A DNA stretch of 64,000 nt from Flavobacterium turcicum (lineage in GTDB: Bacteria > Bacteroidota > Bacteroidia > Flavobacteriales > Flavobacteriaceae), in NCBI RefSeq assembly GCF_011365745.1, contig NZ_JAAOBY010000002.1:124001-188000 (forward strand). The letters are read 5' to 3'. Within the stretch, counting starts at the first letter, position 1. Every line of letters begins with the position of its first letter. Shown here in pieces: positions 38,687 through 42,929 of the stretch. The notes below the pieces were generated by a model. The model saw only the letters and a list, made by a program, of their open reading frames with translations. It made no database searches and was not told the origin of the DNA. A program made the translations under genes and the position numbers.

Positions 38687-39328
38687 TTGAGAGATACAGC
38701 CAAACATCAAGGACTTCGAAATCAACTAACAAGCATTTTAGAGCAAAAAGGGATTGTAGATAAAAATGTACTTGATGCGATTAAAAAGATACCAAGACAC
38801 TTGTTTTTAGATTCTAGTTTTGAGGATTACGCATACCAAGACAAGGCTTTTCCTATTGGGGCGGGGCAAACTATTTCGCAACCCTACACGGTAGCTTTTC
38901 AATCGCAATTGTTAGAAGTTAAAAAAGAAGATAAAATCTTAGAAATTGGTACTGGCTCGGGATATCAAACGGCTGTTTTGTGTACCATGGGAGCTAAAGT
39001 ATATAGCGTAGAACGACAAAAAGAGTTGTTTAAAAAGACATCTAATTTTTTTCCGAAATTGCATATTAGACCCAAGCATCTTTCTTTTGGTGATGGTTAC
39101 AAAGGTTTACCAAACTATGCGCCATTTGATAGTATTATTGTCACTGCGGGTGCTCCTTTTATCCCGCAGCCGTTAATGGCTCAGTTAAAAATTGGAGGTC
39201 GATTGGTAATTCCGCTTGGCGAAGACGTTCAAATCATGACGTTACTTATTCGTAAAAACGAAACCCAATTTGAAAAACACGAATTTGGTGAATTTCGATT
39301 TGTACCGCTTTTGGAAGATAAAAATTAA
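38687..39328 (+). CDS. pcm: protein-L-isoaspartate O-methyltransferase
   Basis: Repairs isoaspartyl residues in aged proteins using SAM. 213 residues. The start is TTG at 38687: the sequence RDTAKHQGLRNQLTSILEQKGI that follows matches the usual N-terminus, an in-frame stop lies 13 bp upstream, and no ATG precedes it. Motifs: IPRHLFLD, AYQDKAFPIGAGQTISQPYTVA, and SAM site EIGTGSGYQTAVL. Divergent from the oxidoreductase gene. Confidence 0.94.
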   Translation: MRDTAKHQGLRNQLTSILEQKGIVDKNVLDAIKKIPRHLFLDSSFEDYAYQDKAFPIGAGQTISQPYTVAFQSQLLEVKKEDKILEIGTGSGYQTAVLCTMGAKVYSVERQKELFKKTSNFFPKLHIRPKHLSFGDGYKGLPNYAPFDSIIVTAGAPFIPQPLMAQLKIGGRLVIPLGEDVQIMTLLIRKNETQFEKHEFGEFRFVPLLEDKN

Positions 39329-39395: not shown

Positions 39396-40367
39396 TCATT
39401 CGATTGAAGTAGTTAAACCATATCGTTTCAAAATGTTTTTCTGTTCATTAATCACAGCGATATAATTTTCTTCTTCGCTTGAATTTGTTGTGTTTAATAA
39501 GGTTTGAATAATCGGTAAAAGTGTATAACCATTCAGTAAGAATAAATAATTTGTTACTAGGCACGCCATTTTTTCAATTTCAACATCAAAAACAGACAGC
39601 CTTCTTAACTTTTGATAGGTTTGTACAGCAAAAATCATAGGATGAAGCTCATTTTTTTGGCTTTCGAACCATGTGAAAAAGCTTTCCAATTCCTTGTTTG
39701 ATTCATTTGTCTGATTTTCAATTGCATCTGATGAAATTCCGCGAATTAACAATTGATAAAGGGTATGTAATTCTTTAGGACTGATAACTGTATTGTTTTG
39801 AGCAAGGTCACGAAGGTAGGCGAGTGCTTCGTGCTGATTAATGACTTCAAGGTGTTCGCGCATGCTTTTACCTGAAATCGTGTGGCCTTTGTTGATAATC
39901 AAATCTGTTTCCTCAAGACTCATGCTGTTGCCTGCAGCACGATTACTTTCATGAGTGAGTTCTATTTCTAAAGCTTTGGAGATGCGGTATCGGTCAAAGT
40001 GACTAATTGTACTCAAGTCATTTTTCAAAGAAGTAACTTCATCTAATAATCGTAAAAGGATTTTTGAAGGCTCGAACTTTTTTGGTTTAGTAATTACTTG
40101 TAATTCCTGCTGAGCGAGTTGTAAGGCTTGCATTGCCCATTCTTCGTTATTGATTTCGTTTAGGATTTTATCTTTAAGCCAAAGTATCACAATTTTTTCA
40201 ATATCTATTTCAAGTAATTGAGCTAGTTTGACTAATTGGTCTCTTGTAGGCTTACGGTTTCCGGTTTCAAATTTGCTAATTAAAGCCTGATCAATGCCTA
40301 ATAATTGCGCTACTTCTCGAGTTTTCAAACCTTTTTGTTCGCGCGCTGATTTAAGCATTTGGTGCAT
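39396..40367 (-). CDS. XRE-type HTH regulator with degenerate Fic domain
   Basis: 323 residues. Residues 4-58 form an XRE/Cro helix-turn-helix (LKSAREQKGLKTREVAQLLGID, ISKFETGNRKPTRDQL). Residues about 95-300 align without gaps to Fic proteins: SMSLEETDLIINKGHTISGKSMREHLEVINQHEA (148-181) and LHPMIFAV (241-248) up to LFLLNGY (275-281). Yet the catalytic HPFx[DE]GN[GK]R is replaced by SVFDVEIEK (258-266), losing His, Asp/Glu, Gly, Asn and Arg, and the inhibitory SxxxEGN reads SNRAAGN (141-147) with Ala for Glu. AMP transfer is therefore unlikely; a DNA-binding regulator that keeps the Fic fold as sensor or dimer domain is my inference. A palindrome lies 31 bp upstream. Confidence 0.85.
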   Translation of the reverse strand: MHQMLKSAREQKGLKTREVAQLLGIDQALISKFETGNRKPTRDQLVKLAQLLEIDIEKIVILWLKDKILNEINNEEWAMQALQLAQQELQVITKPKKFEPSKILLRLLDEVTSLKNDLSTISHFDRYRISKALEIELTHESNRAAGNSMSLEETDLIINKGHTISGKSMREHLEVINQHEALAYLRDLAQNNTVISPKELHTLYQLLIRGISSDAIENQTNESNKELESFFTWFESQKNELHPMIFAVQTYQKLRRLSVFDVEIEKMACLVTNYLFLLNGYTLLPIIQTLLNTTNSSEEENYIAVINEQKNILKRYGLTTSIE

Positions 40368-40397
40368 ATAATTGAAATGTTTTTGCGAGTCTTGACG

Positions 40398-40425
40398 ATT
40401 TAAGTCATCAATTGAGTTCTTAAAT
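40398..40425. promoter_or_regulatory. 28-bp palindrome, operator candidate
   Basis: ATTTAAG-TCAT-CAATTG-AGTT-CTTAAAT: 7-bp outer arms, a 6-bp centre and 22 of 28 positions symmetric around one axis. It lies 31 bp before the start codon of the XRE-pseudo-Fic gene, where an autoregulatory operator would be expected. Binding is inference. Confidence 0.45.
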
Positions 40426-40448
40426 TAATGCAAATCAAAGGGAACTAC

Positions 40449-40904
40449 TTAGAACGATTTTTTGATTCGTTCTAAGTCGCGTTTGGTATCTTGTTCTTTT
40501 AATGATTCGCGTTTATCGTAGGTTTTCTTTCCTTTACAAAGGCCAATTTGTAGTTTAGCCAAGCCTTTTTCATTGGTAAACAATTTTAAAGGAACAATGG
40601 TTAAACCTTTGGCTTGTACGCTTTTTAGTAAACCTTTTAATTCTTTCCTTTTTAAAAGTAATTTTCTTTCACTTCTGGATTTATGATTGAATTGATTACC
40701 AAAAGCATACTCTTCAATATAGGTATTGATTGCAAAAAGCTCAGCATTGCTGTTAAACTCACAAAAGCTTTCTGTAATATTGGCTTTGCCCAAACGAATA
40801 GATTTAATTTCAGTACCTGCTAATACAATTCCAGCAGTGTAGGTATCGAGAATTTCATAATCGAATTTCGCTCTTTTGTTGAATATGTTTATTGTTTTTA
40901 CCAT
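40449..40904 (-). CDS. smpB: SsrA (tmRNA)-binding protein
   Basis: Partner of tmRNA in rescue of stalled ribosomes. 151 residues from [47 protein letters not shown]; a longer start adds three residues. The central [11 protein letters not shown] and the basic tail [23 protein letters not shown] are diagnostic. The ssrA gene itself is not in this window. A -7 box ends 6 bp before the ATG, suggesting an mRNA with nearly no leader. Confidence 0.97.
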
Positions 40905-40910
40905 AGGTGA

Positions 40911-40943
40911 CAAAGGTAATAAAATTTAAAATGGTTTTGTCAA
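40911..40943 (-). promoter_or_regulatory. promoter abutting the smpB start
   Basis: Minus-strand -7 TACCTTTG (40911-40918, exact); TTG at 40941-40943 gives a 22-bp spacer, slightly long. Predicted transcription start is within about 3 nt of the ATG at 40904. Confidence 0.5.
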
Positions 40944-40944
40944 A

Positions 40945-41430
40945 TTAAGGTAATTTGAGTAGTTGGTAACTAATGGTGTCACCAATAATTGTTACTATAT
41001 AGAGGTTTCCAAAGGTGGTATCTTCAATATCGTTAAATACTTGTTGGTTTATTATCTTATTGACAAAGTCTGGAGTGGTATTGCTATGACCTACAATCAG
41101 TACTTTTCTACCTAAAGTTATTTTTTTAAACGCCTTTAAATCAATTTTTTGAGGATCATAAAGCTGTATTTCAATTTTATCGGCAGTAGCAATTGGAGTC
41201 GCTGTTTGCTGAGTTCTTTTGTAATTAGTGCTGTAAATTTGGTCAAAATCAATTGATTCAAAAATAGCTTTCCATTTTTGTGCTCGTTGCATTCCTAACT
41301 CTGATAAATTTGGATCTTTAGAGTTGTCTACTTTTTCGGCATGTCTAATAAAATAATAAGTAGTGCTTTTTTGTTGACTAAAACTAAGTTGCCATGCCAT
41401 TAATAGGAATAAAATCAGTTTTGTTTTCAT
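40945..41430 (-). CDS. secreted histidine phosphatase family protein
   Basis: 161 residues from ATG at 41428-41430: signal peptide MKTKLILFLLMAWQLSFS, then a phosphoglycerate-mutase-like domain with FIRHAEKVDNSKDPNLSELGMQRA (phospho-His in RHAEK), IYSTNYKRTQQTATPIA and the second catalytic His in VLIVGHSNTTP. Small SixA-like size. Likely periplasmic; substrate unknown. Divergent from the VF530 gene. Confidence 0.92.
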   Translation of the reverse strand: MKTKLILFLLMAWQLSFSQQKSTTYYFIRHAEKVDNSKDPNLSELGMQRAQKWKAIFESIDFDQIYSTNYKRTQQTATPIATADKIEIQLYDPQKIDLKAFKKITLGRKVLIVGHSNTTPDFVNKIINQQVFNDIEDTTFGNLYIVTIIGDTISYQLLKLP

Positions 41431-41443
41431 GATCAATTGTATT

Positions 41444-41472
41444 TTGCTTCGGTTGAAAATTAGTTATCTTTG
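41444..41472 (+). promoter_or_regulatory. promoter abutting the VF530 gene start
   Basis: -33 TTG (41444-41446), 18-bp spacer, -7 TATCTTTG (41465-41472, exact). The box ends 4 bp before the ATG at 41477, so the transcript is probably leaderless. Confidence 0.65.
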
Positions 41473-41476
41473 CATT

Positions 41477-41707
41477 ATGCAAAATTCTACATCAAAAGAC
41501 CCACTTCACGGTATTACCCTAAAATCTATTGTAGAGCAATTGGTTGCTTATTATGGGTTTGATACTTTAGGAGAATTGGTCAAAATTAAATGTTTTAGAG
41601 ACAACCCAAGTGTAAAATCAAGCCTTACTTTTTTGCGTAAAACCGATTGGGCACGTCAGCAAGTTGAGGAGTTGTATGTAAAAACTATTCCAAAATTCTC
41701 AAAGTAA
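41477..41707 (+). CDS. VF530 (DUF2132) family protein
   Basis: 76 residues from the ATG at 41477 (MQNSTSKDPLHGITLKSIVEQLVAYYGF); a longer frame begins inside the promoter and cannot be the start. Small all-helical domain with KIKCFRDNPSVKSSLTFLRKTDWARQQVEELYV, the VF530 signature. The family has a known fold resembling DNA-binding modules but no established role. Its promoter sits immediately before the ATG. Confidence 0.92.
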   Translation: MQNSTSKDPLHGITLKSIVEQLVAYYGFDTLGELVKIKCFRDNPSVKSSLTFLRKTDWARQQVEELYVKTIPKFSK

Positions 41708-41712
41708 TTCCA

Positions 41713-42264
41713 TTACTTAATTCGGTAAGAAAGCATTATGCCACCTCTATAAGGAAGCCATTCACCACTTTTGTTGTATTTTTTGGCCTCATCCACACGT
41801 TCACCTGTACTTACTAAATACCCTTTGTAAAAACCCTGATGGTTTCCGCCACCTAAAAAGAAATCCAAAACAAAGCGTTCTTTAATTCTCTTTTGGTAGC
41901 CAATTGTTGCCCCGGCCATGTATCCCACACCTTTTTCATAATTATCCGTTTTCCAGTAGTTCCATTTTTGAAAATTATACACGGTTCCACCTAAGTGAAC
42001 GCCAGCATAAAAACCATTAAATTTTTCCTTGAAGTGATAACGGTATTCTGGGATAAACATATAGAATTGCGCTGGATTTCCATTGATAGATTTCCACATA
42101 GATGCGGTAATATCAAACTGAAAAGTTGATTTTTCACCAATGCTGGTTTCAATCCCAACATTTGGTACGGTTAGCAAGGTAGTTATCGCATTGGCTTTTA
42201 CATAGGTTTGTGCTTGAGCGAAAGTGCTAATTAAAAGGAGACTGAAGTAAATTAGTTTTTTCAT
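41713..42264 (-). CDS. DUF3575 family outer-membrane protein
   Basis: 183 residues from ATG at 42262-42264: signal peptide MKKLIYFSLLLISTFAQAQ, then amphipathic beta strands (VKANAITTLLTVPNVGIETSIGEKSTFQFD, FIPEYRYHFKEKFNGFYAGVHLGG, GYMAGATIGYQKRIKERFVLDFFLGGG) ending ...LSYRIK. The pattern suits a small eight-strand barrel. DUF3575 members are otherwise uncharacterised. Convergent with VF530, 5 bp apart. Confidence 0.9.
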   Translation of the reverse strand: MKKLIYFSLLLISTFAQAQTYVKANAITTLLTVPNVGIETSIGEKSTFQFDITASMWKSINGNPAQFYMFIPEYRYHFKEKFNGFYAGVHLGGTVYNFQKWNYWKTDNYEKGVGYMAGATIGYQKRIKERFVLDFFLGGGNHQGFYKGYLVSTGERVDEAKKYNKSGEWLPYRGGIMLSYRIK

Positions 42265-42313
42265 AATTATCGAATTACTACCAACGGTATTCAAATTGTA
42301 AAATGGTTTGGAG

Positions 42314-42321
42314 CAAATTTA
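42314..42321 (-). promoter_or_regulatory. probable -7 box for the DUF3575 gene
   Basis: Minus-strand TAAATTTG, exact; nearest TTG (42337-42339) gives a 15-bp spacer, so the -33 half is doubtful. Leader about 45 nt. Confidence 0.4.
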
Positions 42322-42380
42322 GAATATAATAGGTACCAAATAGGTATTGTGGTTTAAAAATCACTTTTAAAGTGATTGTT

Positions 42381-42929
42381 TTATTTTTTTAAAATCGAAT
42401 AAATAACACTATCCCAAAAGCGACCGTCAAAAAATTCATTTTCTCGCAAATGACCTTCTTTAATAAATCCGTTTTTCTCTAGTACTTTTGCGGAAGCATA
42501 ATTTTCTGGATCGATAATGGCTTCAATGGAATGCAAGTTCATCTCGTCCCATCCATATTTCACAACTTTTTGTACTGCCTCTGTAATAATTCCTTTGCCG
42601 TGATGTTCAGGTAATAACATGTACCCAATTTCGGCTCTGTAACTCTCAGGTTTAATTCTGTAATGTCCAATAATACCAATCATTTTCGGGTTGTCTTGAA
42701 ATGATATAGCCCAATTTATTCCTAAGTTGGCATCAATGTTATCATTGATTGTTTTGATATGTTCAAGGGCTTGTTCAGTAGTATGTAAAAGTGGTCGTGG
42801 AATAAATTCCATTGTTTGAGGATTGGAACGTAGCGCAAGTAATTCGGCAGCATCGTTATTATCTAAACGTCTCAAAACCAATCGCTCTGTTTTTAAAATA
42901 GGGAATGGAGAAAAATTAATTACCATCAT
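42381..42929 (-). CDS. GNAT acetyltransferase, RimJ/RimL-like
   Basis: 182 residues: ILKTERLVLRRLDNNDAAELLALR at the N-terminus, then IGIIGHYRIKPESYRAEIGYMLLPEHHGKGIITEAVQKVVKYGWDEMNLHSIEAIIDPENYASAKVLEKNGFIKEG, the acetyl-CoA fold with Q/HGKGI loop. Acceptor may be a ribosomal protein N-terminus or another amine; not determinable. Two adjacent ATG codons (42927-42929 and 42924-42926) could start it. 12 bp after the epimerase gene, so cotranscribed. Confidence 0.92.
   Translation of the reverse strand: MMVINFSPFPILKTERLVLRRLDNNDAAELLALRSNPQTMEFIPRPLLHTTEQALEHIKTINDNIDANLGINWAISFQDNPKMIGIIGHYRIKPESYRAEIGYMLLPEHHGKGIITEAVQKVVKYGWDEMNLHSIEAIIDPENYASAKVLEKNGFIKEGHLRENEFFDGRFWDSVIYSILKK

Follow-up and report, generated by a model that had tools for sequence, protein, structure and literature searches.

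A catalytically degenerate XRE-Fic protein and a conserved promoter element between smpB and pcm in Flavobacterium

The window analyzed here, 64,000 nucleotides of the Flavobacterium turcicum contig NZ_JAAOBY010000002.1, contains a gene on the minus strand (39396-40367) whose 323-residue product joins an N-terminal XRE domain to a Fic domain that, judged by alignment with its relatives, is without the residues needed for AMP transfer. The gene and its catalytic degeneracy were established from the ORF, from domain searches and from the relatives' alignment. The explanation that we favor, with a confidence that goes no further than an even balance, is that smpB and pcm enclose a one-gene, self-repressing XRE-Fic locus in which the Fic enzyme has been disarmed in the lineage of the window copy.

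The XRE-Fic protein and its Fic homology

The XRE domain occupies residues 1-62 (40182-40367, minus strand), as delimited by Pfam and the family alignment. The first-pass annotation of this gene had described the N-terminal HTH as intact, and this is borne out: HTH_3 is detected at residues 5-58 (E 6e-12) with 45.8 bits against a curated cut-off of 23, and within the recognition region IDQALISKFE several columns do not vary across the 75 family rows. A helical linker follows (residues 63-125, 39993-40181, minus strand), and Fic-less relatives stop at about the position of this linker.

The degenerate Fic domain was located by homology searches at residues 126-286 (39510-39992, minus strand). 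As the same annotation had stated, the catalytic motif HPFx[DE]GN[GK]R is replaced by SVFDVEIEK (residues 258-266, 39570-39596, minus strand), and the inhibitory motif SxxxEGN is replaced by SNRAAGN (residues 141-147, 39927-39947, minus strand), with Ala at the Glu position; both replacements are confirmed in the ORF and in the alignment of relatives. The protein therefore has neither the signature of an active AMPylase, HPFx[DE]GN[GK]R with its catalytic His, nor that of a class II Fic protein, (S/T)xxxEGN with its inhibitory Glu. An alignment to ordinary Fic proteins without gaps had also been reported, and this does not hold, since a flap of about 16 residues near 214-222 is absent in comparison with intact relatives (lost-flap site at residues 212-222, 39702-39734, minus strand). 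By sequence comparison, the catalytic His, the GNGR anion hole, the second Arg, the flap and the inhibitory Glu are all gone.

Sequence searches identify this domain as a real Fic homologue. FICD was reached by phmmer from the window copy at 2.9e-5, and a 75-row family profile reached it at 7e-46; among profile matches of the Fic domain FICD ranks first (solved structures 4u04 and 6i7g). The Pfam Fic model does not report the window copy, and reports all five of the Fic-bearing relatives scanned (L003, L043, L015, L145 and L094). Two structure models are weak (pLDDT 50 and 52), with Fic proteins as their best Foldseek matches (TM 0.24-0.46); for a low-confidence model of residues 96-323, the 31 best Foldseek matches are all Fic proteins, two of them at E <0.001. 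Structural detail from either model was rejected, as both are too weak to be read beyond a Fic-like match. FICD/HYPE differs from the window copy in having a TPR domain (PMC12409994), no HTH, and activity as both an AMPylase and a deAMPylase.

Genomic context and distribution

The upstream neighbor of the XRE-Fic gene is smpB (40449-40913, minus strand), and the convergent neighbor is pcm (38687-39328, plus strand), encoding a protein L-isoaspartate methyltransferase; both names were read from the sequence. With these two genes as its neighbors, the XRE-Fic gene has no separate antitoxin gene adjoining it, as a type II toxin-antitoxin system would. At the 3' end of smpB, a perfect 11-bp inverted repeat with a 9-nt loop (40447-40477) overlaps the stop codon and is kept in F. 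erciyesense; it is perhaps the smpB terminator.

A 98% identical relative in named contigs is from F. erciyesense, and within its own genome the window protein has one match only. Across the genus, a match reaching 1e-10 is found in 274 of 398 Flavobacterium genomes. In the first closed loci with a neighbor, 82 of 87 proteins are full length. In an enlarged set of 108 full-length and seven Fic-less loci, smpB and/or pcm adjoin the gene in 113 of 115 cases, and both do in 105, an smpB or pcm neighbor being the entry condition for all loci except L143 and L145. At the family level, 249 genomes from 235 genera were searched with an intact relative, and 11 of them, that of F. turcicum included, match it at 1e-30; outside the F. 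turcicum genome, only one match, from one other genus, begins near the N-terminus. When 14 genomes of the genus without a match were queried with SmpB, pcm was found near smpB in the fetched flank in seven and within about 100 bp in five. Given these empty smpB-pcm sites, the XRE-Fic gene can be absent.

Two loci have additional coding sequence. In L070 (1998-4433, genome G397), the XRE-Fic frame extends to 812 residues; Pfam matches (E up to 0.01) are confined to the HTH and Fic domains, with none in the last 460 or so residues, and no pcm turned up in the flank retrieved for this locus. In L089 (3095-4441), XRE-Fic and pcm are separated by a 448-residue reading frame, with a GGTSAGMAILGG stretch reminiscent of S51-type peptidases.

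Intact, degenerate and Fic-less forms

Alignment of homologues, which the first-pass annotation had proposed as a check on the loss of HPFxDGNGR, recovers an intact Fic motif in 63 of the 108 full-length orthologues, with the inhibitory Glu in 62 of these and Asp in one; most of these intact relatives carry HPFIDGNGR. Because intact relatives exist, the window copy is a derived form. The other 45 orthologues are degenerate, and seven further loci encode a protein of 119-122 residues that ends where the Fic part would start. An account of the origin of these Fic-less forms from an N-terminal tree was rejected, as that tree is poorly resolved and joins long branches.

Among the degenerate proteins, 29 form a dead group of 330-335 residues with a common flap deletion and an altered motif, in which P, F, Q and A are invariant, G is present in 26 and N in 28. 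Partly degraded copies (L005, L008, L049 and L062) are scattered over the tree, and the locus of the relative L146 (G125) is split, the HTH and the Fic domain each having its own reading frame. To judge from these forms, the gene seems to have lost its active parts on several occasions, in most cases behind a control site that is nearly unchanged.

The conservation of the altered motif itself in the 29 dead relatives could be taken to mean that the protein is changed and not dead, its pocket having acquired new chemistry or retained nucleotide binding. There is a parallel in Fic2 of Campylobacter fetus, which is described as still toxic; its core motif is degenerate and an inhibitory motif is lacking (PMC5651007). 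However, that protein, which has antitoxins in trans, keeps the catalytic His and requires it for toxicity (PMC5651007), and this His is lost in the window copy, where even the GN of the catalytic motif is missing and K and C occupy the positions of the two Arg residues. We consider a changed pocket a very improbable account of the window protein.

The 66 rows that keep the catalytic His all have the second Arg (66/66), and their inhibitory position holds Glu in 65 cases and Asp in one. The 42 rows from which His is gone comprise six with Glu, five with Asp and 31 with neither. All of the Glu and Asp rows in this second set have kept the Arg; where His and Arg are both lost, neither Glu nor Asp is found (31/31), and these rows are the window copy, its sister and the dead group of 29. 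It had been argued from the window copy that the inhibitory Glu is lost only where no activity is left to restrain; this holds as a pattern in the His-bearing rows, but the 31 losses amount to two groups. The Fisher p value of 3e-21 for the association of His and Glu ignores relatedness and is not counted as evidence, and a tree-controlled test of whether His goes before Glu has three to four usable pairs, too few to reach significance. On the gene tree, a single tree with long branches, the fewest changes are seven for His, five for Glu (Asp counted as lost) and two for the flap. A three-step order of His, Glu and Arg was also considered and rejected, the five apparent Glu-before-Arg rows all being Glu-to-Asp changes; since Glu and Arg are lost together in the 31 rows, only the statement that His is lost first stands. 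The second Arg is taken, from work on FICD, to be the partner of the inhibitory Glu. In CccR, Ser and Glu are described as contacting an Arg (PMC9755527).

Selection on the two domains

In comparison with the 63 active rows, the window copy has a median identity of 73% (50-79) in the HTH (residues 1-62) and of 42% (37-47) in the Fic part (residues 126-286), against medians of 81% and 84%, respectively, among the active rows themselves. Identity to the active rows has thus fallen much further in the Fic part than in the HTH, which is itself somewhat short of the level seen among active rows. A claim that the HTH is as conserved as among the active rows had rested on single pairs, and was rejected on the medians over all 63 rows.

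For the Fic part, dN/dS is 0.03-0.19 in eight chosen pairs of the dead group and 0.02-0.06 in eight chosen active pairs, with some dS values above 1 in both sets, and it is 0.11 in the one partly degraded pair. By these ratios, the dead group of 29 is clearly under purifying selection, and therefore disarmed versions can be kept. The window copy and its sister gene differ at seven sites, one synonymous and six nonsynonymous, four of the latter in residues 1-75; with only seven differences, this pair says nothing on present selection.

A serious alternative, if on balance a doubtful one, is that the window copy is a decaying allele in which catalysis has been lost and the constraint on the Fic part is gone, with the frame not yet broken. 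The preponderance of nonsynonymous differences from the sister, more than half of them near the N-terminus, would fit such a decay, as would the slightly lowered identity of the HTH, the long stem branch of the window copy in the gene tree (below), the scattered, partly degraded copies and the relative split into two frames; the Fic-less forms and the empty smpB-pcm sites further show that the Fic part, and indeed the whole gene, is dispensable. Against decay, the frame, the HTH and the control element are intact in both species despite the strongly diverged Fic part, and selection clearly maintains the separate dead group.

History of the window copy

In a tree of SmpB and Pcm (105 rows, quick method), the window copy and its sister fall within a 20-row clade that includes 16 active and two partly degraded members, with SH-aLRT values of 93, 88 and 87 along the way. 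The first Fic gene tree joined the same two copies to the dead group (support 95/89), with a long window stem of 1.38 per column. A gene tree that holds the window copy with the active clade, as suggested by the neighbor tree, has a higher likelihood (lnL +7.49, p-AU 0.79); membership of the window copy in the 335-residue dead group was rejected on this constraint, and long-branch attraction is the likelier cause of the grouping. Given the higher likelihood of the active-clade tree and the placement by neighboring genes, the window copy was probably disarmed independently of the 29.

Monophyly of the 27 main dead rows is also rejected by the SmpB and Pcm alignment (p-AU 0.022, for a group chosen after the tree had been seen), which suggests allele exchange at the locus. 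A recent gene transfer between the window lineage and F. erciyesense, suspected from the few synonymous changes, is unsupported, because the neighboring stretch 40600-42800 is equally similar. In a comparison with L057, that stretch is near-identical (mostly 100%) and pcm is about 95% identical, so that the divergence between the two species is mosaic.

The promoter element

Comparison of upstream regions across orthologues yields a putative operator, TGACTTAAATCGTCAAGAC (TGAC-N7-GTC-NN-GAC), at 40389-40407 on the minus strand. The core TGAC-N7-GTC is present within 70 bp before the start in 108 of the 114 orthologues examined, the window included. By class, it is found in 61/62 active, 43/43 degenerate, 2/2 window-type and 2/7 Fic-less loci, and hence in 106/107 Fic-bearing loci with usable upstream sequence. 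The form with three half-sites is present in 54/62 active, 41/43 degenerate and 2/2 window-type loci (97/107 Fic-bearing loci), in 0/7 Fic-less loci and in 0 of 22800 mononucleotide shuffles. The element lies 30-48 bp upstream of the start codon.

The pattern TGACN7GTCWWGAC has two matches in the genome of F. turcicum (control 0), one at this promoter and one inside a coding gene. In 20 other genomes, three of which have no match, TGACTN6GTCWWGAC has 18 matches against five for the reversed control; by coordinates, 17 of the 18 lie directly before the orthologue, and one is inside a coding frame. The two-half-site pattern is about as frequent in the F. turcicum genome as its reversed control (seven matches vs four), and of its five other sites there, four lie within genes and one runs across a stop codon, with the next reading frame beginning 93 bp further on. 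This search of the F. turcicum genome covered exact matches and, at the patterns searched, did not find the element at another promoter, the site across the stop codon aside. A wider regulon was sought with TGACTNWWWNNGTCA in six genomes and rejected, with 34 matches (sites on both strands counted twice) against 27 for the reversed control; among 11 matches whose context was inspected, one recurrent match is the coding stretch VDLKSQYE.

The sequence TAnnTTTG lies inside the palindrome of the element in 75 of 114 loci, the window not being among them. It is given as the -7 consensus for Bacteroides fragilis, and as present in an F. johnsoniae promoter (PMC2483708). Where the element contains this Bacteroidetes -7 box, binding would block the promoter. 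The window element has no perfect TAnnTTTG, and TTTG occurs upstream of the corresponding box at distances of 31 and 36 bp. The usual spacing of TTTG is -33, and the window positions are off that spacing.

Autoregulation had previously been proposed on the basis of a different site, a 28-bp palindrome at 40398-40425. This palindrome exists, with 11 of 14 pairs, but it is not kept in the sister, the best 28-mer of F. erciyesense having 8 of 14 pairs, and it was rejected as the operator on that ground. At 28 bp, 19 of 2000 mononucleotide shuffles score at least as high; for the best palindrome at any length, the figure is 37 of 500. It shares only the smpB-side part of the conserved element (40398-40407), which is the gene-side end of the palindrome; between F. 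erciyesense and the window, the smpB-side half of the palindrome stretch has mostly diverged and the gene-side part is identical. The proposal of autoregulation itself finds support in the conserved element. The protein most likely binds 40389-40407 and represses its own gene, considering that the element is conserved and that there is a precedent in CccR of Yersinia pseudotuberculosis, which is described as repressing its own promoter via palindromic sites as a dimer (PMC9755527). The XRE-Fic protein may bind TGAC-N7-GTC(-NN-GAC) as a dimer or as a higher oligomer.

The element could also be read as the start of a leader peptide (ATG ACT AAA TTT GTC ...) and not as an operator, since an A precedes 97 of 108 elements and makes an ATG. 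In the window, however, this frame ends after two codons (ATG ACT TAA). GTC, which is part of the search pattern, is kept with its third base in 106/107 Fic-bearing loci, the codon after it varies (AAG, TTG or ATG), and the phase to the gene start is scattered (40/42/26). The leader peptide was rejected on this frame and substitution pattern, and is barely credible; an N-terminal peptide was rejected on the same phases and because only 14 of 108 elements are in frame and open.

Comparison with known Fic systems

CccR resembles the window copy in combining a Fic domain and an HTH in one protein. It is a secreted effector and toxin with a C-terminal HTH and a Fic domain active on FtsZ, whereas the window copy has an N-terminal XRE domain and has lost the active Fic motif by which a CccR-type protein would be recognized. 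CbFic2 of Coxiella burnetii is likewise a Fic protein with an HTH; it belongs to class II, and its oligomeric state and activity are altered by DNA binding, for which its authors used random DNA and consider non-specific binding (PMC10628234). It differs in being an active enzyme and in having a C-terminal HTH.

The order of HTH and then Fic is also found on a Bacteroides finegoldii plasmid (NZ_OY725926.1), whose Fic protein carries SNRIEGN and HPFIDGNGRTSR; there the HTH and Fic genes are separate, the motif is active and a second Fic gene lies downstream. This locus (L204, 2501-4141), with its HTH gene, intact class II Fic gene and second Fic gene, also has HicB and HicA annotated nearby.

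A defense function has been described for SoFic, a Fic protein presented as an anti-phage toxin (PMC12249575). SoFic and the PDC-S04 defense proteins are, like the locus studied here, single-gene class II Fic systems, and L003, the one active relative tested, matches the PADLOC models SoFic and PDC-S04 at 3e-35 and 3e-29, respectively. The window copy, which is without the catalytic motif, matches PDC-S04 only weakly (4e-6). The matches of L003 would be compatible with a protective role for dead alleles, which might restrain active Fic proteins (incoming alleles, or plasmid or phage toxins) via mixed dimers or via repression at a shared operator. Active and dead alleles do have almost the same control element, the neighboring genes reject one clade for the 27 dead rows, as allele exchange predicts, and one C. 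fetus Fic protein is described as neutralizing another (PMC5651007). However, the genome of F. turcicum holds a single match to the window protein, and incongruent trees have other causes too. Protection is rated as improbable.

Proposed explanation and implications

The preferred explanation is a self-repressing locus whose Fic enzyme was disarmed in the window lineage; that enzyme probably descends from a class II Fic AMPylase restrained by its own Glu and by autorepression. The dead Fic fold might have been kept as an aid to oligomerization, or else for binding a ligand or partner. The third half-site goes together with a Fic domain, whether intact or degenerate, an association compatible with a role in oligomerization; the Fic-less loci that provide the comparison are few (seven) and partly related, and five of the seven are without the whole element. 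It counts against the explanation that a regulator with its own promoter as the only detected target has no obvious output. The imperfect -7 box of the window and the spacing of its TTTG also weigh against it.

A broader reading, tentative and somewhat unlikely, is that a fixed Flavobacterium locus holds interchangeable, self-repressing Fic alleles that have been repeatedly disarmed, His being lost first and Glu and its Arg partner afterwards, with the operator and the HTH kept; selection would then favor disarmed alleles for a regulatory role or for the protection they give against active ones. If this is true, the third half-site would point to cooperative DNA binding driven by the Fic fold, whether or not that fold is still active.

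A description of the locus was not found in the open-access literature, where few of the queries paired Flavobacterium with Fic. The locus differs from the known systems in its N-terminal XRE domain, in having lost catalysis but not the promoter element, and in the range of states that it shows across relatives. Pseudoenzymes are usually met singly. At this one syntenic locus, the forms run from intact through half-disarmed and fully disarmed to domain-less, the promoter element being nearly identical among those that bear a Fic domain. They make up a natural series for studying the conversion of an enzyme into a regulator. Such a series allows a direct test of whether the safety lock, the inhibitory Glu, is lost only after the catalyst, and of why a dead Fic domain is kept.
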